From Roseateles koreensis (GTDB lineage: Bacteria; Pseudomonadota; Gammaproteobacteria; Burkholderiales; Burkholderiaceae_C): a stretch of DNA of 64,000 nt. The stretch lies in the NCBI RefSeq assembly GCF_028595305.1, contig NZ_JAQQXS010000003.1, positions 186,001 through 250,000 of the forward strand. The letters run 5' to 3'. Each line of letters opens with the position of its first letter. Positions within the stretch are counted from its first letter, which is position 1. Shown here piece after piece: positions 2,949 through 63,970 of this stretch. The notes beneath the pieces are model-generated. The model saw only the letters and a list, made by a program, of their open reading frames with translations. It did no database searches and had not been told where the DNA came from. Made by a program: the position numbers and the translations under genes.

Positions 2949-4853
2949 GTGAACAATCAGTGGTTCTCGAAGGTGGCTGTATGGATAGTGATCGCCTTGG
3001 TGCTGTTCACTGTCTTCAAACAGTTCGATCGAGGTGCAAGCCAAGGCAATCAGCTTGGATATTCGGAATTTCTTGACGAAGTTCAGGCGCACCGCATCAA
3101 GTCCGTCACTCTGCAAGAGGGTGGCGCGGGTACCGACATCTTGGCTGAAACCAACGATGGCAAGAAGTTGCGCGTGACTGCCACCTACCTTGACCGCGGT
3201 CTGGTGGGTGACCTGCGCAACGCGGGTGTCAAATTTGATGTGAAGCCGCGTGAAGAGCCCTCGTTCCTGATCAATATGCTGATCAGCTGGGGTCCCATGC
3301 TGCTCCTGATCGGCGTGTGGGTCTACTTCATGCGTCAGATGCAGGGCGGTGGAAAAGGGGGGGCGTTCAGCTTTGGCAAGTCCAAAGCACGTATGCTGGA
3401 CGAGGCCAACAACACCACGACCTTTGCCGATGTGGCTGGTTGTGACGAGGCCAAGGAAGAAGTCAAGGAATTGGTCGACTTCCTGAAAGACCCGCAAAAA
3501 TTCCAGAAGCTGGGTGGCCGTATTCCGCGCGGGGTGTTACTGGTTGGCCCTCCGGGTACCGGCAAGACCTTGCTTGCCAAGGCCATCGCCGGCGAAGCCA
3601 AGGTGCCGTTTTTCTCGATCTCGGGTTCTGATTTCGTTGAAATGTTTGTTGGCGTGGGCGCAGCCCGTGTCCGTGACATGTTCGAGCAAGCCAAGAAGAG
3701 TGCGCCCTGCATCATCTTCGTGGACGAAATCGACGCGGTCGGTCGCCATCGCGGTGCTGGCCTGGGCGGCGGTAACGACGAGCGTGAGCAGACCCTCAAC
3801 CAGATGCTGGTGGAGATGGATGGCTTCGAAACCAATCTGGGCGTGATCGTCATGGCGGCGACCAACCGCCCCGACATCCTGGATCCGGCGCTGCTACGCC
3901 CCGGTCGTTTCGACCGTCAGGTTTATGTGACCCTGCCTGATGTGCGTGGCCGTGAGCAAATCCTCAATGTGCACATGCGCAAGGTGCCTGTGGGGCAGGA
4001 CATTCGCGCTGACATCCTGGCACGTGGGACGCCCGGCTTCTCGGGCGCTGACTTGGCCAATCTGGTCAATGAAGCCGCGCTGTTTGCTGCTCGCCGCAGT
4101 GGTCGTGTGGTCGAGATGAATGACTTTGAAAAGGCCAAAGACAAGATCATGATGGGCCCTGAGCGGAAGTCCATGATCATGCCCGAGGAAGAGCGCAAGA
4201 ACACGGCCTATCACGAGGCGGGTCATGCCTTGGTTGCGCGCTTGATGCCCAAGACCGATCCGGTGCACAAGGTCACGGTGATCCCGCGTGGCCGTGCGTT
4301 GGGCGTGACCATGCAATTGCCCGAGGGTGATCGTTACAGCCTCGATAAAGAGCGCATGCTGTCGACCATCTCGGTGTTGTTTGGTGGCCGCATCGCTGAA
4401 GAAGTGTTCATGAACCAGATGACCACGGGTGCCTCCAATGACTTCGAACGCGCCACCTCGATCGCTCGCGACATGGTGACCCGTTACGGCATGACCGATG
4501 AGTTGGGCCCGATGGTGTATTCGGAAAACGAGGGCGAGGTGTTCCTGGGCCGCTCGGTGACCAAAACCACCAGCATGTCTGAAGAAACCATGCGCAAGGT
4601 CGACTTGGTTATCCGCCGCATCATTGACGAGCAATACGGCATTGCTCGCAAACTGATCGAAGACAATCAAGACAAGATGCATGCGATGGCCAAGGCCTTG
4701 CTCGAGTTTGAGACCATTGATGCGGATCAAATCGAAGACATCATGTCGGGCAAGCCGCCCCGCTTGCCCAAGGATTGGACCCTTCCAGCCGGTGGCAAGT
4801 CGGACGGCACGCCGCCTCCGGTGAAGCCGGACGGCGCACCCGCCGCGGCCTGA
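2949..4853 (+). CDS. ftsH: ATP-dependent zinc metalloprotease FtsH
   Basis: The product is 634 residues. FtsH is a membrane-anchored AAA+ protease that degrades unassembled membrane proteins and regulators such as LpxC. There are two N-terminal membrane helices (about 8-24 and 107-126). The Walker A GPPGTGKT is at 200-207, Walker [11 protein letters not shown] near 254-263, the SRH region around [20 protein letters not shown], and the zinc motif HEAGH at 422-426. The GTG start at 2949 is chosen because AAGGAG lies 6 bases upstream and it gives the family N-terminus [11 protein letters not shown]; an upstream in-frame start at 2907 lacks a site. The C-terminus is rich in proline and glycine, as usual in Burkholderiales. 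Confidence 0.97.
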
Positions 4854-55039: not shown

Positions 55040-56782
55040 TCAGTCGTCCGAATCGAAGCCAATGCGCATGGCTTCCGCCAGCGAGGTCTTGCCGGCGATG
55101 ACCAGGGCCAGGCTGCGGTCGGCCAAGGTCTTGCCTTTCAAGAATCGCCGTGCCGCCAGCATGAAGCCGGCCGCGTCACTGCGCTGGATGGCCACGGACA
55201 TGTCGGCATTCATTTCCAGCATTTCATAAATGCCACGCCGCCCGATGTAGCCGGAGCCGTTGCAGTGCGTGCAGCCCACGCCTTTCTTGGTTTGAATGTT
55301 CGCGGCGGCGGCTTCGCCGGCCACCGCGGCGAGCCAGGCAGCTTCTTGTGGGTTCGGGCTGTGCGGCTCGGCACAGTTCTCGCACACCGCGCGCAGCAGG
55401 CGCTGGGCAATCACGGCTTGCAAGGAGGTGGCCACCATGAACGGGGGGGCGCCCATGTCCAGCAAGCGGAAGGGCGTGCCCACGGTGTCGCGGGTGTGCA
55501 GGGTGGACAGCACCATGTGGCCGGTGATGGCGGCCCGCAAGCCGATTTCAACCGTTTGTGGATCGCGCATCTCGCCCACCAGGATCACGTCGGGGTCTTG
55601 GCGCAGGGTGGCGCGCAGCACGCGGGCAAAGTCCAGCTCGATCTTCTCATTCACCTGCACCTGGGTCAGGCCGGGCAGGCGATATTCAACCGGGTCTTCC
55701 ACCGTGATGATCTTGTTTTGCTCGGCGTCGACCTCGCTCAGTGCCGCGTACAGCGTGGTGGTCTTGCCAGAGCCGGTGGGGCCGGTAACCAGGATCATGC
55801 CGGCCTGCTGGCTGAGAATTTCGCGGAAACGGGCCAGCATGTCGGCGGGCATGTCAATTTGGCCCAGCCGACGAATGGCGGAGCCCTGGCCCAGCAAGCG
55901 CATCACCACCGATTCACCATACTGGCCGGGCAGGGTGGACAAGCGCACATCGATGGTCTTGTCGCGCAAGCGCAGGGTGAAGCGGCCATCTTGCGGCAGG
56001 CGCTTTTCAGAAATGTCGAGGCCGGCCATCAGCTTGAGCCGCTGCGACAAGGCCGCCGCAATGCGCTTGTCGGCCTGTGTCTGGGTTTGCAGCACACCGT
56101 CGATGCGGGTGCGGATCAGTAGCTCGCCCTCTTGGGGTTCGATGTGCACGTCTGAAGCGCCAGCCTGGCTGGCATCCTCAAACACGCTTTGCAGCAGCCG
56201 CACCACCGGCGCGCCTTCCTGACCCACGCTGGCTTGCAGGGCGCCGAAGTCAACCGCGTCGCCGATGTCTTTTTCAAGCGCCTTGGCCAGGCCGCTGATT
56301 TCTTCGCTGCGGCGGTAGTGACGGTCAAACGCAGCGGGCAGCTGGCTCTCCGCCACCACGGCCATACTGATGCGGCGCTTGAGCACGCGGCTCAGCTCGT
56401 CGTATGCAAACAGGTCCAGTGGGTCGGCCATGGCGACCAGCAGGGCCTCGCCCCGGTCTTCCAGCACGATGGCCCTAAATCGCCGCGCCGGTGTTTCCGA
56501 CAGCAGGCGTACCAGCTCGGTCTTGAGTGGAAACGTCTTCAGATTGACGAAGGGGATACGCAGCTGGCGGGCCAGTACATGCGCCAGGGCTTCTTCGGTG
56601 ATCAGCCCGGCGTCAATCAGCAGCCGGCCCAGCTTTTTGCCGGTGGCGCGCTGCAGTTCAAGGGCTTGCTGAAGTTGTTGCTCCGAGATCAGTTGTTGCT
56701 GCACCAGCACGTCGCCCAGACGCATTTTCTGGGGCGGGTTCGAGGCATTGTCTGAACTGGCGTTGCGCGTGTCTGTCGTCAT
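55040..56782 (-). CDS. mshE: Pilus extension ATPase MshE with c-di-GMP-binding N-domain
   Basis: The product is 580 residues of the GspE/PilB AAA+ family that drives pilus assembly. Two adjoining 24-residue MshEN motifs occupy residues 21-44 (RLGDVLV...LELQ) and 50-73 (KLGRLLI...LARQ), separated by five residues, just as in the c-di-GMP-binding domain of Vibrio MshE. Walker A GPTGSGKT is at 334-341, the Asp box and Walker B (RQDPDVILVGEMRD) near 394-407, and the zinc tetracysteine at C467, C470, C504 and C507. Seven bases separate it from the second ATPase gene upstream. Confidence 0.93.
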   Translation of the reverse strand: MTTDTRNASSDNASNPPQKMRLGDVLVQQQLISEQQLQQALELQRATGKKLGRLLIDAGLITEEALAHVLARQLRIPFVNLKTFPLKTELVRLLSETPARRFRAIVLEDRGEALLVAMADPLDLFAYDELSRVLKRRISMAVVAESQLPAAFDRHYRRSEEISGLAKALEKDIGDAVDFGALQASVGQEGAPVVRLLQSVFEDASQAGASDVHIEPQEGELLIRTRIDGVLQTQTQADKRIAAALSQRLKLMAGLDISEKRLPQDGRFTLRLRDKTIDVRLSTLPGQYGESVVMRLLGQGSAIRRLGQIDMPADMLARFREILSQQAGMILVTGPTGSGKTTTLYAALSEVDAEQNKIITVEDPVEYRLPGLTQVQVNEKIELDFARVLRATLRQDPDVILVGEMRDPQTVEIGLRAAITGHMVLSTLHTRDTVGTPFRLLDMGAPPFMVATSLQAVIAQRLLRAVCENCAEPHSPNPQEAAWLAAVAGEAAAANIQTKKGVGCTHCNGSGYIGRRGIYEMLEMNADMSVAIQRSDAAGFMLAARRFLKGKTLADRSLALVIAGKTSLAEAMRIGFDSDD

Positions 56783-56789
56783 GGCGGTG

Positions 56790-59330
56790 TCAGGTGTTGC
56801 TGGTGGCGCGCACTTCGGCCATGAGGGTGATGCCTTGCAGCACTTTCAGAATGCCGTCTTGCCGCAGCGAAAGCATGCCCTCAGCCAAGGCCGTGTGCTG
56901 CAACTCCTCGGCCCGGGCGCCGGTTTGGACCTGATAGCGCAGCGTCTTGGACACCACCAGTAATTCGTGCAGCCCCGCCCGCCCCTTGTAGCCACTGTTG
57001 TCACAGGTGGCGCAGCCGGCGCTTTGGTACTTCAGCAGTTGTCCGCCATGCCCGTAGGTTTTGACCCAGCTGTCGAGCACCGTTTGGCGCGGGGGGCGGA
57101 TGGCGGCGGGGTAGACATGCAAGTAGTCGTCCAGCCATTCACTCAGATCGGCTTCGTTGAGTGGCGTCGAAGTGCGGCAGGCCGGGCAAAGGCGTCGCAC
57201 CAGGCGCTGCGCCAGCACGGCCAGCAAGGAGTCGGCGAAATTGAAGGGGTCCATGCCCATGTCCAGCAGGCGGGTGATGGTTTCGGGAGCGCTGTTGGTA
57301 TGCAACGTGGACAGCACCATGTGGCCGGTCAGCGAGGCCTCGACAGCAATGGCTGCCGTTTCTTCGTCCCGAATTTCGCCGACCATGATGACGTCCGGGT
57401 CGGCCCGCAGAAAGGCGCGCAGCGCCTTGGCAAAGGTCCAGTCGATCTTGGGGTTGACCTGCACCTGGCGCAGGCCGGTCTGCGTGATCTCAACCGGGTC
57501 TTCTGCAGTCCAGATTTTGCGATCCGGTGTATTGATATGGCCCAGCGCCGAATGCAGGGTGGTTGTTTTCCCGGAACCCGTGGGGCCCACGCACAGTACC
57601 ATGCCGTAGGGGCGGCTGACGGCCTTCTTCAGTTCGTCCAGGTTGCGGCTGGTGAGGCCGAGCTTGTTCAGCTCAATCGGTTTGGAGGAGGCCAATAGCC
57701 GCATCACCACATCTTCCAGGCCGTTGTTGGTCGGGATGGTCGCTACCCGCAACTCCAGCCTGTGCTGCGGGGAGAAACGGGCGAAATTGATCTTGCCGTC
57801 CTGCGGCTTGCGGCGCTCCGAAATGTCCAGCTCGCACATGATCTTGATGCGGGCGATCATGGCGTTGCGATAGGTGTTGGGCAACTCCAGATAGGGCTTG
57901 AGCACGCCGTCTTTGCGGAAGCGGATCTTGAGCTTCTCGCGTCCGGGGTAGGTTTCGATGTGGATGTCGGAGACGCCTTGCGTGCTGGCTTCGATGATCA
58001 TGGTGTTGATCAGGCGCACCAGCGAGTTGTCGCTTTGCTCGATCTGAAATTCATCGTCACGGCCCCCGCGGTCGCCGACTTCACGCTCCAGCGTTTCGAT
58101 CAGCTGGTCGGCTTTATCGAGCGAAAAATCAAGGCCTGACATGCCCGGAATGGTTTCGCCGCGCAGGCCGGTGTCGTTGCCGCTGCGCTCATAGGCATAG
58201 GCGATCGCACTGTGCACCGTGCCGAGCTTGGTCAAAGTCGGGATGACCTTCAGCTGGGTGATGAATTCGACCTCGTCCAGGGCATCGCGCCGCGTGGGGT
58301 CTTCCATGGCCACAATCAGTCGGCCATCTCGCATGAGCAAGGGCAACACCTCCAGCCGCTTAGCGGCGGTGAAGGGCAGTTTTTTGAGGGACTCAACCTC
58401 GATGGCGAAGTTGTCGACATCCACCACCGGATAACCCATCTTGCGGGCCAAGGCGGACTGCAAGGCCTGGCGAGAAACAATCCCCTTGCGCACCAGCAGT
58501 TCGCCCAGGGGTACCGAGCGGTCATCGCGTTGCAGGTTCAGTGCGTGGTCGAGTTGCTCCTGGGTGATCAATTCCAGGGCCAGCAAGGCTTCGCCGATAC
58601 GCACCATGGGCATGCTGGCCTGCTGGGCGATGGCTTGCATCAGTTGGTCAGCCTGAACGATGCGCGCGGCCACCAAGATATCGCCCACCCGGCGGGCGCG
58701 CATTCCCTGCTGCTCGTTGACGGCCGCGTTGATTTGAGCGGCGGTGGCCAGGTTCGCTTTCAGCAGCACGTCGCCGATGCGCTCGCCCACTTCCGCCTGG
58801 CTGATCATTTCGCGCGGAATGAACAGCCGCAACACTGAATCGTCGGTGTCGCTGAGCGGCTGAAACAAGAACAAGCCAAGCTCGTTTTGGTGATGGCCAA
58901 TGGTGCGCCCCTTCATTTCTCCGCCGTCCGCCAATTTGAGACGATAGGGGCTGCGGGGGCGTTGGTCCAGCATCAGGCCGGCATCCGTGGCGCTTTCATC
59001 GCGCGCGGGAACATGGACGGGGCGCAACAGGCGCAGCACCCGGAATTGTGCGAACTTCAAGGGCACGGCATGACGGGCAGGCGGCACCAGAATCTGTGCC
59101 ACCCGTTCTTGGGGGGACAACAGGATCAGATGCCCCGGACTGCGGCTGCCGTTGACGCCCAGCACTTCACAAGGCTCTGGGCTCGATTGCGTCAGCGCAG
59201 AGGGGTAGGCCGGGAAGGGCGGCATCGGCCAACTGAAGTCTTGTTGTTTGTCAGCGAACTCGCTTGTCTCGGTCGCACTCATGTCGGCTTTGCCGTGAGG
59301 CCAGTTCAGCGGGGCAGACAAATCAGGCAT
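56790..59330 (-). CDS. Large GspE/PilB-type ATPase with four tandem MshEN-like repeats
   Basis: The product is 846 residues. Residues 1-180 are an N-terminal extension without a clear family; it includes RSPYRLKLADGGEMKGRTIG. Four 24-residue repeats of MshEN type start at R184, R214, R244 and P274, an exact 30-residue period; each has the R/PxGxxL start, and repeats 1-3 end in Gln, repeat 4 in Lys. A second N1 domain (about 300-380) leads to the ATPase: Walker A GPTGSGKT 582-589, Walker B region RADPDVIMVGEIRD near 642-655, and zinc cysteines C715, C718, C773, C776. GGAGA precedes the ATG. It is the first gene of the pilus locus, a paralogue of the neighbouring mshE. Confidence 0.9.
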   Translation of the reverse strand: MPDLSAPLNWPHGKADMSATETSEFADKQQDFSWPMPPFPAYPSALTQSSPEPCEVLGVNGSRSPGHLILLSPQERVAQILVPPARHAVPLKFAQFRVLRLLRPVHVPARDESATDAGLMLDQRPRSPYRLKLADGGEMKGRTIGHHQNELGLFLFQPLSDTDDSVLRLFIPREMISQAEVGERIGDVLLKANLATAAQINAAVNEQQGMRARRVGDILVAARIVQADQLMQAIAQQASMPMVRIGEALLALELITQEQLDHALNLQRDDRSVPLGELLVRKGIVSRQALQSALARKMGYPVVDVDNFAIEVESLKKLPFTAAKRLEVLPLLMRDGRLIVAMEDPTRRDALDEVEFITQLKVIPTLTKLGTVHSAIAYAYERSGNDTGLRGETIPGMSGLDFSLDKADQLIETLEREVGDRGGRDDEFQIEQSDNSLVRLINTMIIEASTQGVSDIHIETYPGREKLKIRFRKDGVLKPYLELPNTYRNAMIARIKIMCELDISERRKPQDGKINFARFSPQHRLELRVATIPTNNGLEDVVMRLLASSKPIELNKLGLTSRNLDELKKAVSRPYGMVLCVGPTGSGKTTTLHSALGHINTPDRKIWTAEDPVEITQTGLRQVQVNPKIDWTFAKALRAFLRADPDVIMVGEIRDEETAAIAVEASLTGHMVLSTLHTNSAPETITRLLDMGMDPFNFADSLLAVLAQRLVRRLCPACRTSTPLNEADLSEWLDDYLHVYPAAIRPPRQTVLDSWVKTYGHGGQLLKYQSAGCATCDNSGYKGRAGLHELLVVSKTLRYQVQTGARAEELQHTALAEGMLSLRQDGILKVLQGITLMAEVRATSNT

Positions 59331-59468: not shown

Positions 59469-59663
59469 TCAGTCCTCGTGCTGTTCCGCACTGTAATTGC
59501 GCCATTGGGTACTGGCGCGGCGCATCAGCTGAAGTTGGCGCAAAAATCGTGGGCAGGCTTGGCAAATCATCATGTGCAGTCGCACGCTTACGCGTTCGGC
59601 TGGGCCCAGTTTGCGGTCTTCGGCTTGCAAAACAAGGGCCGTGATTTCTCGGCAATTGCGCAT
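59469..59663 (-). CDS. Zinc-finger anti-sigma factor of the bufferin cassette
   Basis: The product is 64 residues. The sequence RLHMMICQACPRFLRQL contains the ZAS-type motif H-x3-C-x2-C, with an upstream NCREITALVLQAEDRKL typical of small anti-sigma factors found beside DUF2282 genes. It lacks a membrane helix, so it acts in the cytoplasm, holding the ECF sigma factor inactive until a signal (probably metal or thiol stress) is sensed through the zinc site. The ATG at 59663 starts 5 bases after the sigma stop; the open frame extends to 59768 but overlaps the sigma gene. Confidence 0.85.
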   Translation of the reverse strand: MRNCREITALVLQAEDRKLGPAERVSVRLHMMICQACPRFLRQLQLMRRASTQWRNYSAEQHED

Positions 59664-59668
59664 GACTT

Positions 59669-60244
59669 TCAAAATTTTTCTCCGGCATCCGCCGGCGCCG
59701 TGGCGCCAAACCAGTTCAATTGAAGGCATTCCCGCAGGCGCAGTCGGGCGCGATGCAACATGACCCACAGATTGGTCGTGCTGATGCTCAAGGCCTTACA
59801 GATTTCTTCTGACTCCAGCTCCAGCCACTCTCGCATCATGAACAAGCGGCCCTGTTGGCCGGGGAGATGTTCGACGCAGGCTTCCAGCACGCGCATGAAG
59901 TCCAGTTGACGCAAGCAGTGCTCGGGATCGCCCCAATCCTGCGGCATGTCGCGCCAATGGCCGTCGGGCAGAAACAAGTCGTCGTCCAGGTCCCGTTCGT
60001 CGTCACGGGTGGTGGACATCTCTTTGCTGTTGCGGCGAATCTGATCGACCAACTTGTGCTTCAAGACGCCAATCAACCACGTTTTGAGCTGGGACATGCC
60101 GCCGAAATTCTGCGGTTTTTCAAGGGCGGCCAACAGCGTTTCCGACACCGCATCCTCCGCCCAGGCGCTGTTGCGCAACTGCAGCTGGGCGTACTTGAGC
60201 AGTTGAGGCCGCAGGGCTTGGAGTTGATCGGCGATGTCAGACAT
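59669..60244 (-). CDS. ECF-type RNA polymerase sigma factor
   Basis: The product is 191 residues. Region 2 (about 10-75) contains RNSAWAEDAVSETLLAALEK and TWLIGVLKHKLVDQIRRNSKE; region 4 (about 125-180) contains LELESEEICKALSISTTNLW and the helix VMLHRARLRLRECL. The linker is acidic (RDDERDLDDDLFLPDG). The group matches sigma factors paired with small zinc anti-sigmas and linked to DUF2282/DUF692 operons (RpoQ-like in Cupriavidus gig genes). It is divergent from bufA, 140 bases apart, and likely drives that operon. Confidence 0.92.
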   Translation of the reverse strand: MSDIADQLQALRPQLLKYAQLQLRNSAWAEDAVSETLLAALEKPQNFGGMSQLKTWLIGVLKHKLVDQIRRNSKEMSTTRDDERDLDDDLFLPDGHWRDMPQDWGDPEHCLRQLDFMRVLEACVEHLPGQQGRLFMMREWLELESEEICKALSISTTNLWVMLHRARLRLRECLQLNWFGATAPADAGEKF

Positions 60245-60274
60245 GCATAACTTTCAAAAGGCACTGGCCGCAGT

Positions 60275-60302
60275 GTAAGGAATGTAGGCGTCCAGCCGAC
60301 GC
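60275..60302 (+). promoter_or_regulatory. Candidate ECF-sigma promoter of the bufferin operon
   Basis: GTAAGG (60275-60280) followed after 16 bases by CGACGC (60297-60302) has the GTAAxx-N16-CG form used by ECF sigma factors of this kind. It lies about 83 bases before the bufA start, in the only long gap between the divergent sigma gene and the operon. Confidence 0.4.
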
Positions 60303-60384
60303 AGTACATGTCGGTGGCTTGCGCTTGCGGTTTGAGCCCCACGCTGAATTGAACTTCACTTTGTTTTTGTATGGAGCACGCCTC

Positions 60385-60669
60385 ATGAAAACGTCTTATC
60401 TTGTTTCTTCCGCATTGGCTGGCGCCCTGGCCTTGGGTTGTGTGGCACAGGCCGCTGCTGCCGACGAAAAAACCGCTCGGGAAAAATGTTACGGCATCAC
60501 CCAGGCGGGCCAAAACGACTGCGCCAATCTGAGTGGCAGCCACTCCTGTGCCGGCCAGGCCACCGCGGCCCAGTCGCCTGACGAATGGAAGTACGTGCCC
60601 AAAGGCGCTTGCAAGGGCTTGAATGGCTTGAGCCCTGCCGAAGCCAAAGCTCGACTGGGCAAAAAGTAA
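60385..60669 (+). CDS. bufA: DUF2282 bufferin-type RiPP precursor (BufA1-like)
   Basis: The product is 94 residues. A Sec signal peptide (about 1-25; [16 protein letters not shown]) precedes a mature peptide with four cysteines at C35 (EKCYG), C46 (QNDC), C55 (SHSCAG) and C76 (KGAC), the DUF2282 pattern. In bufferins the central cysteines are converted to thiooxazole groups by a DUF692 enzyme and the peptide binds copper in the periplasm. GGAG lies 8 bases before the ATG at 60385; the open frame to 60319 is promoter DNA. It heads the bufA-B-C-D operon. Confidence 0.92.
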
Positions 60670-60700
60670 GCGCATCCGTCAAGGTGCAGGGAGTAGAGCT

Positions 60701-61564
60701 ATGGTCGAACGGGTCGAAAGTGTCGAACTTATCGGCATTGGATGGCGGCAGTCGCACTACCTGCCTTTGCTGGAGACGCTGCCACCGCTGGGCTTTTTGG
60801 AAGTGCACTCGGAGAATTTCTTTGCCGAAGGCGGCGCCTCGCTTGCGCTGCTGACTGAGGCGCGTGCCCATTACCCGATCAGCCTGCACGGCGTAGGCTT
60901 GTCGCTGGGGTCGGCGGCGGGTGTGGATGCCTGGCACCTCGAACGTTTGGCGGCGCTGGTTGCCCACGTCGATCCGGTTCGGGTGTCAGACCATGCGTGC
61001 TTTGCGCGGGTTGCCGTGGCGGGATCTCATGCGCATGCCGGCGATCTGTTGCCGATTGCGTTTGATGATCTCAGCCTGAATCTCATGGTGCACCATGTGC
61101 AGCAGGTGCAGGAGCGTTTGCACCGCCCCTTGTTGGTGGAGAACATCAGCGCCTATTTGGGCTGGGCCGGCGACACCTTGGCGGAGCCCGAATTCTTCAA
61201 CCAACTGACTCAGCGCAGCGGTTGCCGCGTGCTGTTGGATGTCAATAACCTGGTGGTTAATGCGCGTAACACAGGCGTTAGCGCGGCAGAAGCGGTGGAC
61301 GTTGCCTGTGCGTGGATTGATGCGCTGAACCCGCGGTGCGTGGCTGAAATCCACCTTGCTGGCCATACCGCGCTGCCCGACATCGTCATCGACGACCACG
61401 GCAGCCGCGTGTCTGCGGCGGTGTGGCAGGTTTACGCCCATGCATTGCGGCATTGCGGCCCGCAGCCCAGTTTGATCGAATGGGACACCGATCTGCCGGT
61501 GTTGGACGTCTTGCTTGACGAAGCCGACGAGGCGCGTCATCGGCTCGCAGGTGCCTTGCAATGA
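60701..61564 (+). CDS. bufB: DUF692 multinuclear non-heme iron oxidase (MNIO, BufB)
   Basis: The product is 287 residues, a TIM-barrel enzyme of the MNIO family that modifies cysteines of RiPP precursors using iron and oxygen. Candidate iron ligands lie in the conserved places: H36 (EVHSENFF), H63 ([10 protein letters not shown]), H98 (VSDHA), E147 (LLVENIS), D180/N182 (LLDVNNL), H218 and H222 (EIHLAGH), D232/H233 (IDDHGSRV) and E260 (EWDTDLP). It lies 31 bases after bufA and overlaps bufC by ATGA, so enzyme and partner are made together. Confidence 0.92.
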
Positions 61565-62334
61565 AAGCAAAGGCGCAAATGCAGACGCAGGTACAGACCC
61601 AGAACCGGGTACAGGCTCAGCAAACATTGCTGTGCGCGATCCAAGGCAAGTTGGGGGCTGACAGCCCGCCCGCATCGACCCTGCTGAGGGCCTTGCCGGG
61701 CGTGCGCCTGGCGCGAGGCTTGGCGGCGTACCGGGGCCATGCGCAAGCCTTGGCGGAGCGGGTTCTGGCGGGGGCCTATCCCCGTGTGAAATTTCAACTA
61801 GGCCTCGACTCCTTCACGGCGATGGCCTGGGCGTTCTGGCGCGCGCGTCCGCCTGGCTGCGGCGACCTTGGCCGCTGGGGCGAGGCGTTGCCTGAATTTT
61901 TGGCCGCGCAGAAGGGCATGGATCTTTGGCTGTGCGATGTGGCGCGCATGGAGTGGGCTGTGCATCTGGCGCAGCGTGCGGCAGACAGTGTCTTGAACGC
62001 GGTTTCACTGGATTTGTTGCACGGCCATGACCCCGAGGCGCTGCGTTTGACGCTTCGCCCGGGTCTCGCGTTGTTGCGGGTAGCCCCCATGGCTGCAGCG
62101 TGTTTGGCGTGCCCTGCGCCAAGTGGCCGGGTGCTGGTTTGGCGCTGCGCCTGGCAGGCGCGCTGCGCAGAACTGGATGCCGGGAGTTTCAGCTTCATGG
62201 CTGCAATTCAGGCGGGGCAGAGCCTTCATCACGCCTTGTTGATGGCGTTGGAAGATGCGCCCGACTTCGATTTTTCGCAATACCTGCAGCGTGCGCTGCA
62301 GGACGGCTGGCTGCAATCGGTTGACATCATTTGA
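61561..62334 (+). CDS. bufC: DUF2063 bufferin partner protein (BufC)
   Basis: The product is 257 residues. After a Gln-rich start (about 1-20), a helical DUF2063 N-domain (about 20-110; [20 protein letters not shown] and [19 protein letters not shown]) is followed by a C-domain with the RRE-like role seen in HvfC/BufC proteins, which bind the precursor leader and present it to the DUF692 enzyme. The conserved RGLAAYRGH segment supports the call. It overlaps bufB by 4 bases. The name DUF2063 'DNA-binding' in databases is historical. Confidence 0.88.
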
Positions 62335-62383
62335 GTGCTGTGACCGGGCAGCCTCCGCAACATTCATTTTTGATGGAGTGATC

Positions 62384-62875
62384 ATGAAAAATATTCTTTG
62401 CGCCATCGGGCGCTTCTTTGTGGACCCTGGTTTGCATCACCCGGCCGATTCCCGCCTGGCTGCGTGGATTCGGGCGGTGTTGGGCCAGGCGCAATCGCTG
62501 GCCTTGTTGCTGGCACGCTGGTACGTGGCCCGTGTCTTCTTTCTCTCCGGTTTGACGAAAATCCATGATTGGCAAAGTACCTTGGCGCTGTTCGCTGATG
62601 AGTACCAAGTGCCCTTGTTGCCGCCGGAACTGGCCGCTTATCTAGGCACCGGCGGCGAACTGGGATTGCCGGTGCTCCTGTGCCTGGGGGCTGGGGGGCG
62701 TTTTGCCGCACTGGGTTTGAGTGTGGTCAATCTTGTGGCGGTGCTGAGTCTCAGTGATATCGCGCCGGCTGCCTTGGCGGGGCACCAGTTGTGGGGTGTG
62801 TTGTTGCTGTCGGTGGCGCTGTGGGGGGCGGGGCGCTGGTCGGTGGATGCGTGGCTGCAGCGAGTGAAAACTTGA
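62384..62875 (+). CDS. bufD: DoxX family membrane protein (BufD)
   Basis: The product is 163 residues with about four membrane helices (near 37-57, 87-104, 108-125 and 131-149). ARWYVARVFFLSGLTKIHDW and the following FADEYQVPLLPPELAAYLGTGGE are DoxX hallmarks. In bufferin and gig operons a DoxX protein is the fourth gene; a redox or quinone-linked role is suspected but unproven. GGAG at 62375-62378 precedes the ATG at 62384. It starts 49 bases after bufC. Confidence 0.9.
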   Translation: MKNILCAIGRFFVDPGLHHPADSRLAAWIRAVLGQAQSLALLLARWYVARVFFLSGLTKIHDWQSTLALFADEYQVPLLPPELAAYLGTGGELGLPVLLCLGAGGRFAALGLSVVNLVAVLSLSDIAPAALAGHQLWGVLLLSVALWGAGRWSVDAWLQRVKT

Positions 62876-62893: not shown

Positions 62894-63970
62894 ATGCCAA
62901 ATTTTGATGAACACCCGCACCCACGTTGGCCCGCCTTGCGGGGTAGTTTGTTCGCGTTGCTGGCGGCGCTGCTGTTTGGGGTGAGCACGCCCCTGGTTCA
63001 GCGCTGGGGACAGGGCGTGGGGCCCTTGGGGACGGCGGCCTTGTTGTATGCCGGAGCCAGTGGCGTGGGGCTGTTGCTGCGGCGGCCACTTGCCGCTGAA
63101 GCCCGGGTGCAGCAGGGCGACTGGGGTCGCCTGCTGCTGATGGCGGGTTTTGGGGCGGGCTTGGCGCCGGTGGCCTTGGTGTGGGGCTTGCAGCACACCA
63201 GTGGCACCAGCGCCTCCTTGATGCTGACCCTGGAAGCGGTGTTCACCGCCGTGCTGGCGCGCTTGTTCTGCCACGAGGCCCTGGAGAAGCGGGTGGTCTT
63301 GGCGCTGGGTTTGCTGACGCTGGGAGGGATGGTGCTGGCCTGGGACAGCGTGGCGACGGGCTCTGCGCAGGCTTGGGGTTTGCTGGCGGTTTTGGTCGCC
63401 ACGGCGGCTTGGGGCTTGGACAACACCCTGTCAGGCGCCTTGGCCGGGCGCGATCCTGGCCATGTCGTCATGCTCAAGGGGGGCTTGGGCGCGGCGGTGA
63501 CGGGTAGCTTGGCCTTGCTGTTCAACGAGTCGCTGCCGACTTTGGGGGGCGCTGCGGGCTTGCTGTTGATTGGGGCCACGGCGTATGGCTTGAGCTTGCG
63601 CTTTTACCTGCTGGCCCAACGCGCTATTGGTGCTGCACGCACGGGCTCGGTGTTCGCTTTTGCCCCCTTCGTTGGCGCAGCGCTGGCCTATGCCATGGGG
63701 GAGCGTTCGGGGGCGGCCTATTTGGTGGGGGCGGCCGCGCTGATGGGGCCTGGCGTGTTGCTGCATCTGGCAGAGTCGCATGACCATGCGCATCTTCACG
63801 CGGCGCTGGCCCATGAGCACGCCCATCGCCACGACGACGGGCACCACGATGACCACGAACATGGTCATGCGCGCCCGGTGCAGGGTGAGCACAGCCATTG
63901 GCATCTACATGCGCCCAAGCAGCATCGGCATGCCCATGTGCCCGACGCGCACCATGTGCACCCGCATTGA
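62894..63970 (+). CDS. EamA/DMT transporter with histidine-rich C-terminal tail
   Basis: The product is 358 residues. Ten predicted membrane helices in two EamA repeats (about 14-150 and 160-290) include LLFGVSTPLVQRW in helix 1 and LVWGLQHTSGTSASLMLTLE. The last 64 residues hold 24 histidines in runs such as HEHAHRHDDGHHDDHEHGH, likely a cytoplasmic metal-binding tail. It starts 18 bases after bufD, in the same direction, and is probably co-transcribed with the bufferin operon. Similar His-tailed EamA proteins exist in other proteobacteria; the transported substrate is not known. Confidence 0.88.
   Translation: MPNFDEHPHPRWPALRGSLFALLAALLFGVSTPLVQRWGQGVGPLGTAALLYAGASGVGLLLRRPLAAEARVQQGDWGRLLLMAGFGAGLAPVALVWGLQHTSGTSASLMLTLEAVFTAVLARLFCHEALEKRVVLALGLLTLGGMVLAWDSVATGSAQAWGLLAVLVATAAWGLDNTLSGALAGRDPGHVVMLKGGLGAAVTGSLALLFNESLPTLGGAAGLLLIGATAYGLSLRFYLLAQRAIGAARTGSVFAFAPFVGAALAYAMGERSGAAYLVGAAALMGPGVLLHLAESHDHAHLHAALAHEHAHRHDDGHHDDHEHGHARPVQGEHSHWHLHAPKQHRHAHVPDAHHVHPH

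Follow-up and report, generated by a model that had tools for sequence, protein, structure and literature searches.

The window analysed here is a stretch of 64,000 nucleotides of Roseateles koreensis (contig NZ_JAQQXS010000003.1, positions 186,001 to 250,000) and carries a bufferin cluster in which four genes, bufA, bufB, bufC and doxX, are divergent from the genes of an extracytoplasmic function (ECF) sigma factor and of a small soluble protein of the zinc anti-sigma (ZAS) type (Table 1). The first-pass annotation of this DNA had described a bufferin/GIG-type cassette, producing a ribosomally synthesized and post-translationally modified peptide, together with a dedicated ECF sigma and zinc anti-sigma. 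Open reading frames and Pfam families above their cut-offs confirmed its six genes at the coordinates it gave, including the ATGA overlap of bufB and bufC, and the cassette is borne out by the Pfam and NCBIfam matches and by the layout kept in relatives. The cassette itself is one more bufferin cluster; more is added by its regulatory side, where a promoter-like site lies within the sigma factor gene and points at the anti-sigma gene.

Table 1. Position of the cassette genes and of the two promoter-like signals in the window
Feature	Position	Strand	Characteristics
ECF sigma factor gene	59669..60244	-	TIGR02943/PRK12520 family, 191 aa
Soluble zinc anti-sigma (ZAS) gene	59469..59663	-	64 aa from ATG; C4-x25-H30-x3-C34-x2-C37, without transmembrane helix
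bufA, Buf1 (DUF2282) bufferin precursor	60385..60669	+	94 aa; signal peptide, mature Cys35/46/55/76
bufB, MNIO (DUF692/PF05114) enzyme	60701..61564	+	287 aa; assigned by Pfam, fold and invariant residues
bufC, DUF2063 partner protein (PME1)	61561..62334	+	ATGA overlap with bufB
doxX, membrane protein of the cassette	62384..62875	+	PF07681
Candidate bufABC-doxX promoter signal, TGTAAGGA-N15-CGAC	60274..60300	+	84 nt upstream of the bufA ATG; conserved motif
Candidate intragenic promoter, TGTAAGGC-N14-CGACCAA	59772..59800	-	sigma codons C149-K150 to T156-T157-N158; putative function

The sigma factor shows Sigma70_r2 (43.1 bits) and Sigma70_r4_2 (42.8 bits) domains in the Pfam scan and, among NCBIfam models, matches PRK12520 with 294.3 bits (cut-off 255) and TIGR02943 with 230.2 bits (cut-off 162.2); its stop codon lies 5 nt from the anti-sigma ATG. 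BufA contains a DUF2282 domain (80.3 bits, cut-off 22.4), and the four mature cysteines that had been annotated are found past the Sec-type signal peptide, which was assigned by eye and hydropathy only and contains a further residue, Cys19. The NDC..SCAG pattern is kept in BufA of 76 out of 81 loci, the window counted in. One related locus (L013) shows SHSFAG in place of the SHSCAG of the others and thereby lost one of the four cysteines, with an MNIO gene adjoining. BufB matches PF05114 (MbnB_TglH_ChrH) with 293.9 bits against a cut-off of 25, and its predicted structure, with a predicted local distance difference test (pLDDT) value of 86.5, has its best fold matches in 3bww, TglHI and MbnABC (MbnB). 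Residues H63, H98, H112, E147, D180, N183, H218, D231, H233, E260 and D262 are invariant in 20 aligned BufB sequences and include the putative iron ligands of an MNIO enzyme. BufC and the doxX product match DUF2063 (45.3 bits, cut-off 27.2) and PF07681 (62.4 bits, cut-off 23.6), respectively.

A protein scan of species genomes found 561 related places, from which the best 80 were kept; they are 56-72% identical in BufB, belong mostly to Burkholderiales genera, and some of them are truncated by the end of a contig. Profiles built on the proteins of the window matched bufA in 80 of these loci, bufC in 79, doxX in 66, the anti-sigma in 57 and the sigma in 55, and these counts show that the cassette layout is a standing unit of the group.

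Promoter-like signals of the cassette

The loci with a sigma gene (56) provided 51 sigma-bufA intergenic regions, after four were dropped for a sigma-bufA distance above 800 nt and one for lack of a usable start or profile match. A relaxed motif, TGTAAGNN-N14/15-[CA]GAC, faces bufA in 45 of the 51 regions and the strict form found in the window in 37. Neither form faces the sigma gene in any of the 51, and a looser pattern did so in 5/120 regions of a wider set, so autoregulation of the sigma from its own upstream region was rejected. The bufA signal fits the -35 element of the neisserial sigmaE consensus (-35 GTMAGBWTT, spacer of 12-13 nt, -10 CGTCTAAH; PMC3240639) and its spacer of 12-13 nt when counted from there, but the -10 is CGAC here and not CGTC. 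From this conserved signal bufABC-doxX would be transcribed.

In many relatives the same motif, used as a regular expression, also matched inside the sigma gene, on its coding strand, where region 4.2 reads E-I-C-K-x-L-x-I-x-P-T-N. In the window this site is located 109 nt upstream of the anti-sigma ATG. Because such a motif might follow from the protein sequence by itself, its silent letters were tested; the motif had been noticed ahead of this codon scan. Among 58 distinct sigma genes and 191 codon columns, column 149 (Cys, TGT in 50/58) ranks first for synonymous bias and column 156 (Pro, Ser, Ala or Thr, nearly always xCG) ranks second, with G values of 54.7 and 50.8 against a mean of 12.4 and a standard deviation of 10.1. 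The wider set had 177 sigma rows, of which 176 had a letter in the column and 169 remained after removal of identical genes; 166 were used for the tree, once rows with neither TGT nor TGC were removed. In sigma genes with the -10 half of the site, the intragenic cysteine is encoded by TGT in 116/123, while the other two conserved cysteine columns of the same genes show TGT in 18/122 and 29/123, and the same cysteine is TGT in 9/43 genes without the -10 half. The lysine that follows is present in 108 of the 123 genes with the -10 half and in five of the 43 without it, and where present with the -10 half its codon is AAG in 108/108, with no change on the tree; two other conserved lysine columns changed 18 and 15 times. 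Cys-Lys pairs elsewhere in the cassette genes use TGT in 17/121, compared with 50/54 at the intragenic site. Coding habit as the cause of the motif was rejected by the codon scan, by these within-gene cysteine controls and by the Cys-Lys pair control.

A weight matrix was built solely from the 45 bufA signals of intergenic regions and scored at all positions of both strands over 1.5 kb either side. The intragenic site is among its top two positions in 67 of the 108 sigma genes from loci L097-L204, in which a few places are duplicated, and in 60 of the 62 among them that bear the motif. The two halves of the site go together: a -10 core (CGAC, CGTC or AGAC) is found in 116/125 genes with TGT and in 7/41 genes with TGC (169 distinct sigma genes). 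The -10 is CGTC in nine of the 125 TGT genes, for instance as CGTCTAA in L123, L127 and L162. From locus L086 on, genes with the intragenic site span about 25 family codes and 50 genus codes. A draw at class level, with the 28 best-scoring genes, shows both halves in 15.

Loci with a different arrangement bear on the target of the site. The sigma-ZAS gap is wider in L037 and L100 than in any other locus; the intragenic cysteine codon is TGC in both (the -10 is kept in L037) and a copy of the motif is found in the gap, while no copy lies in the gap of any of the 119 loci that have both the intragenic site and a ZAS gene. Two Paucibacter genomes (L004 and L005) have their sigma-ZAS pair elsewhere in the genome and a lone ZAS gene at the bufferin locus (about 4200-4500 and about 4220-4500, respectively), and thus two ZAS genes. 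The sigma of the displaced pair has lost both halves of the site, and the lone ZAS gene has its own copy of the motif, back to back with that of bufA. Finally, in L162 (1986-4015) a sigma gene, a ZAS gene, an EGKCG-type precursor gene and an MNIO gene lie on one strand, with overlap of ZAS and precursor genes; judged from its sequence, the intragenic site of this locus could drive the peptide genes too.

Soluble anti-sigma and comparison with known systems

The anti-sigma protein, scanned as an upstream-extended frame of 86 aa, shows zf-HC2 as its only Pfam match (24.3 bits, cut-off 22.2) and matches the NCBIfam antisigmaE model with 71.7 bits (cut-off 50). The H-x3-C-x2-C motif of the first-pass annotation was correct and is preceded by C4, and the full C-x25-H-x3-C-x2-C spacing is found in 57 of the 58 loci with this gene, the window counted in. 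The highest 19-residue Kyte-Doolittle mean is 0.57, and no membrane helix is therefore predicted. A polytopic membrane anti-sigma of NrsF type does not fit this 64-residue protein; the RsrA/MseR type does, by ligand spacing, by lack of a transmembrane segment and by the adjoining ECF sigma gene. MseR of Neisseria meningitidis, which matches RsrA, has its Cys4, His30, Cys34 and Cys37 under the same numbering (PMC2893595), and by analogy with MseR mutants the window protein would bind zinc and inhibit its sigma factor.

The cassette is known in kind, because the gigPABT-rpoQ-rsqA region of Cupriavidus metallidurans has the same layout and because the landscape paper on bufferins lists the same parts (DUF2282, MNIO, DUF2063, DoxX, a sigma factor and NrsF) and counts gig operons as bufferin clusters (PMC12452194). 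Like the window, the gig region has a 94-aa precursor with four cysteines after the leader, GigA, the DUF2063 protein GigB, the DoxX-like GigT and divergent ECF sigma and anti-sigma genes; the operon was shown by RT-PCR and is induced by copper and gold (PMC10304878, PMC11022561). That GigA is the DUF692 protein is our reading of the operon order, and the source calls it a metal-binding protein. Unlike the window, with its soluble ZAS and a promoter-like site within the sigma gene, RsqA is termed membrane-bound and control by RpoQ is not demonstrated (PMC10304878). The Bufferin-1 cluster of Caulobacter likewise combines a Buf1 precursor, MNIO, DUF2063 and DoxX genes controlled by an ECF sigma that has a promoter motif of its own; however, the SigF motif is GTAACC-N16-CGAA, and a sigF-type motif precedes sigF, though no strong sigF autoregulation was seen in metal stress (PMC12452194, PMC3511200). 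NrsF has six predicted membrane segments and two cysteines that probably face the periplasm, and an orthologue from C. metallidurans was aligned with it (PMC3511200).

In Neisseria and Haemophilus, MNIO clusters under small soluble ZAS proteins have been described, and their precursors are of EGKCG type (PMC2893595, PMC7907618, PMC12668002). In RpoE/MseR of N. meningitidis and RpoE2/HrsE of Haemophilus influenzae, as in the window, an ECF sigma and a ZAS stand over a doxX/DUF692/DUF2063 cluster (PMC2893595, PMC3240639, PMC7907618), and the Neisseria promoter has a similar -35 (GTMAG) and a spacer of 12-13 (PMC3240639). In contrast, their substrates are of EGKCG type, as described for oxazolin and gonophorin (PMC12668002), and the Neisseria genes form one operon, wholly autoregulated, with -10 CGTCTAA (PMC2893595, PMC3240639). 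The portions of the papers on these two systems that were available contain no mention of an intragenic promoter (PMC2893595, PMC3240639, PMC7907618). The words zinc, zf-HC2, RsrA and ChrR are absent from the main text of the landscape paper (PMC12452194), and no Buf1 precursor paired with a soluble ZAS was met in the open-licence literature searched. Buf1 clusters have been described so far with NrsF; those in the clade of the window have an MseR-like soluble zinc switch, and the signal is therefore probably read in the cytosol. The interpretation of the first-pass annotation as a whole is partly supported: a dedicated switch in the form of an own ECF sigma/anti-sigma pair is there, but the type of switch differs from the published Buf1/gig ones, with a soluble ZAS and not a membrane anti-sigma. 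Neither of the two promoter-like signals was part of that annotation.

The closest precedent for the intragenic site comes from Corynebacterium glutamicum, where the ZAS gene rshA is transcribed on its own from a promoter that lies inside sigH and depends on SigH, as shown by Northern, reporter and primer extension analyses; sigH and rshA are read together from housekeeping promoters upstream of sigH, and a fast shutdown was proposed (PMC3489674). In the window, a putative sigma-dependent promoter, marked by its sequence signal, is likewise aimed at the ZAS gene from inside the sigma gene. The two cases differ in phylum, sigma group, motif (GGAATA/GTT type) and regulon, which in Corynebacterium covers disulphide and heat stress and no bufferin (PMC3489674). 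No statement on silent-site conservation of the sigH-rshA promoter was met in the available text (PMC3489674). In the literature searched (open-licence papers, some only in part), no report was met of an intragenic anti-sigma promoter in the sigma family of the window. This precedent makes an intragenic promoter more likely and less new, and a wholly new device was dropped as a reading because the sigH-rshA case is already published (PMC3489674).

Proposed regulation and alternative explanations

We consider it probable that the Buf1 operon is under an ECF sigma held by a soluble ZAS and that a copy of the sigma promoter inside the sigma gene makes the anti-sigma. A cytosolic stress, either a soft metal such as Cu(I) or Au(I) or thiol oxidation, would hit the C4/H30/C34/C37 zinc site and free the sigma, by analogy with MseR and RsrA. 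RNA polymerase with the freed sigma would read the conserved bufA signal and transcribe bufABC-doxX. By family, BufC would help BufB to oxidise the central cysteines of BufA, putatively Cys46 and Cys55, to thiooxazoles (the bufferin modification falls on the central cysteines; PMC12452194), and the modified peptide would reach the periplasm through Sec and chelate copper. The same sigma would read the second promoter copy in its own region 4.2 codons and make anti-sigma without extra sigma, as a built-in brake. Since no signal faces the sigma gene, this would be a brake without a positive loop, unlike the autoregulated operon of Neisseria. We read the intragenic site as a sigma-dependent promoter that would give this anti-sigma feedback.

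Several results weigh against this regulation by an intragenic promoter. The association of the two halves is strong with Fisher's test (2.8e-20), which ignores kinship, and in a phylogeny-corrected pair test 2.2 pairs changed in the same direction, 0.3 in the opposite one and 6.5 showed no difference (9 pairs, too few; median p 0.5, not significant). The -10 is lacking in 43 of the 166 tree rows, the site is found in none of 12 far relatives, and the TGT contrast is weaker at class level, with 20/27 at the site and 11/28 and 10/28 at the other cysteines. Most genes without the intragenic site show no replacement promoter that the pattern matched. In the window, the intragenic -35 ends in GGC and not in GGA, and the matrix ranks the site second and not first. 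Against co-variation, genome G227 has CGTC as its intragenic -10 and CGAC in a signal about 550 nt upstream of an MNIO match. A genome-wide motif search for further targets gave one match per pattern and two for each backward control; these single matches were not used as proof, as they are no better than the control. On the side of the enzymes, BufB scores 299.5 bits under the NCBIfam NF050167 MNIO_BufB equivalog cut-off of 310 and is thus classed here as the MNIO enzyme of a Buf1 cluster and not as that equivalog, and the doxX product scores 58.5 bits under the NF050144 HvfX cut-off of 80, so that, with PF07681 above its cut-off, the gene is filed as DoxX and not HvfX. Copper as inducer, suggested by family, has against it that the nearest studied ZAS systems respond to hypochlorite or to no oxidant tried.

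Two further comparisons bear on the site. Co-variation of the -10 between intragenic and target promoters, in eight genomes of which six have an MNIO gene, found no clear target in most; in L208 and L210 the sole match is the intragenic site itself, and L207 points against co-variation. Among eight sigma genes without a recognised ZAS gene behind, seven have TGC (L111-L116 and a second frame of L064) and one has TGT with CGAC (L080), a weak control because the ZAS-linked sigmas L107-L109 of the same genomes lack the site too. The L111-L116 sigmas are another ECF paralogue without a ZAS gene, and five of the six show a loose GTAAG...CGAC upstream on the opposite strand.

The alternative that survives best concerns the inducer and is independent of the promoter question: hypochlorite or thiol oxidation would be sensed, the bufferin would belong to an oxidative response and copper would not be a direct inducer. 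RpoE2, of the closest studied soluble ZAS type, is linked to HOCl, with HOCl and H2O2 as stimuli of RpoE2-HrsE, and a doxX-DUF692-DUF2063 cluster is among its targets (PMC7907618); furthermore, RshA and RsrA respond to thiol oxidation (PMC3489674). However, copper and gold induce gig in C. metallidurans, though beside another anti-sigma (PMC10304878). Copper is not a published stimulus of MseR or HrsE, and none of the tried oxidants was a stimulus for MseR (PMC2893595). We regard oxidation sensing as a real possibility, held somewhat below an even chance. As to the site itself, it could bind sigma-RNA polymerase without productive transcription of the anti-sigma gene, acting as a decoy or a pause site, since enterobacterial intragenic sigma sites are often transcriptionally inactive (PMC10771440); this is unlikely, given that the motif stands directly before the ZAS gene in L037, L100, L004 and L005, that in L162 the site is at the head of a same-strand series of sigma, ZAS, precursor and MNIO genes and that the intragenic promoter of Corynebacterium is productive (PMC3489674). 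A plain gig/bufferin cluster, with TGT-AAG...CGAC explained by protein coding and codon habit and with no promoter role, is about as unlikely, for although the C-K-x-L-x-I-x-P-T-N motif permits the pattern and AAG and xCG codons are frequent in these genes (pool values of 0.74 for AAG and 0.41 for CCG), TGT makes up about 22% of the pool cysteine codons and is as scarce at the control cysteines and Cys-Lys pairs as described above.

With the intragenic promoter as the preferred explanation, it is likely that in a large ECF sigma branch of the class to which the window belongs the codons of region 4.2, which recognises the -35, serve at the same time as a sigma-dependent promoter of the anti-sigma gene and, in some genomes, of the peptide operon behind it, so that a feedback inside the protein code constrains that code. 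If this is true, a device so far described for a single actinobacterial sigma would be of ancient origin, preserved by silent-site selection and tied to bufferins, and one short DNA site would serve two codes, a recognition helix and a promoter. The sigma would be unable to fire without making its inhibitor, which would explain how a runaway could be avoided. To the Corynebacterium device, the window and its relatives would add the bufferin setting, the location in region 4.2 and the silent-site conservation across many families.

Neighbouring genes and a second MNIO locus

Directly behind doxX, at 62894-63970 on the forward strand, the window shows an EamA-type transporter gene whose product has a tail very rich in histidine, which makes up 22 of the final 60 residues of the frame. 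It was rejected as a fifth operon gene, as none of the 80 related loci gave a relative at E 1e-10. On the other side, two tandem genes of type II/IV secretion ATPase-like proteins (55040-59330, reverse strand) adjoin the anti-sigma gene, and the larger one, which was scanned, contains T2SSE and MshEN domains.

A search of plasmids gave matches that, among those listed, all have less than 60% identity. The genome of the strain (4.37 Mb, 35 contigs) contains a single DUF2282 match and a single sigma match at E 1e-5. It also contains a second MNIO locus (L001, G000:C31:54668-55459 and upstream), with no sigma found within the 3.8 kb examined. Upstream of its MNIO gene, at 1083-1358, lies a cysteine-rich open reading frame with a CK motif that resembles a Buf2 precursor, and a DUF2063-like gene follows.

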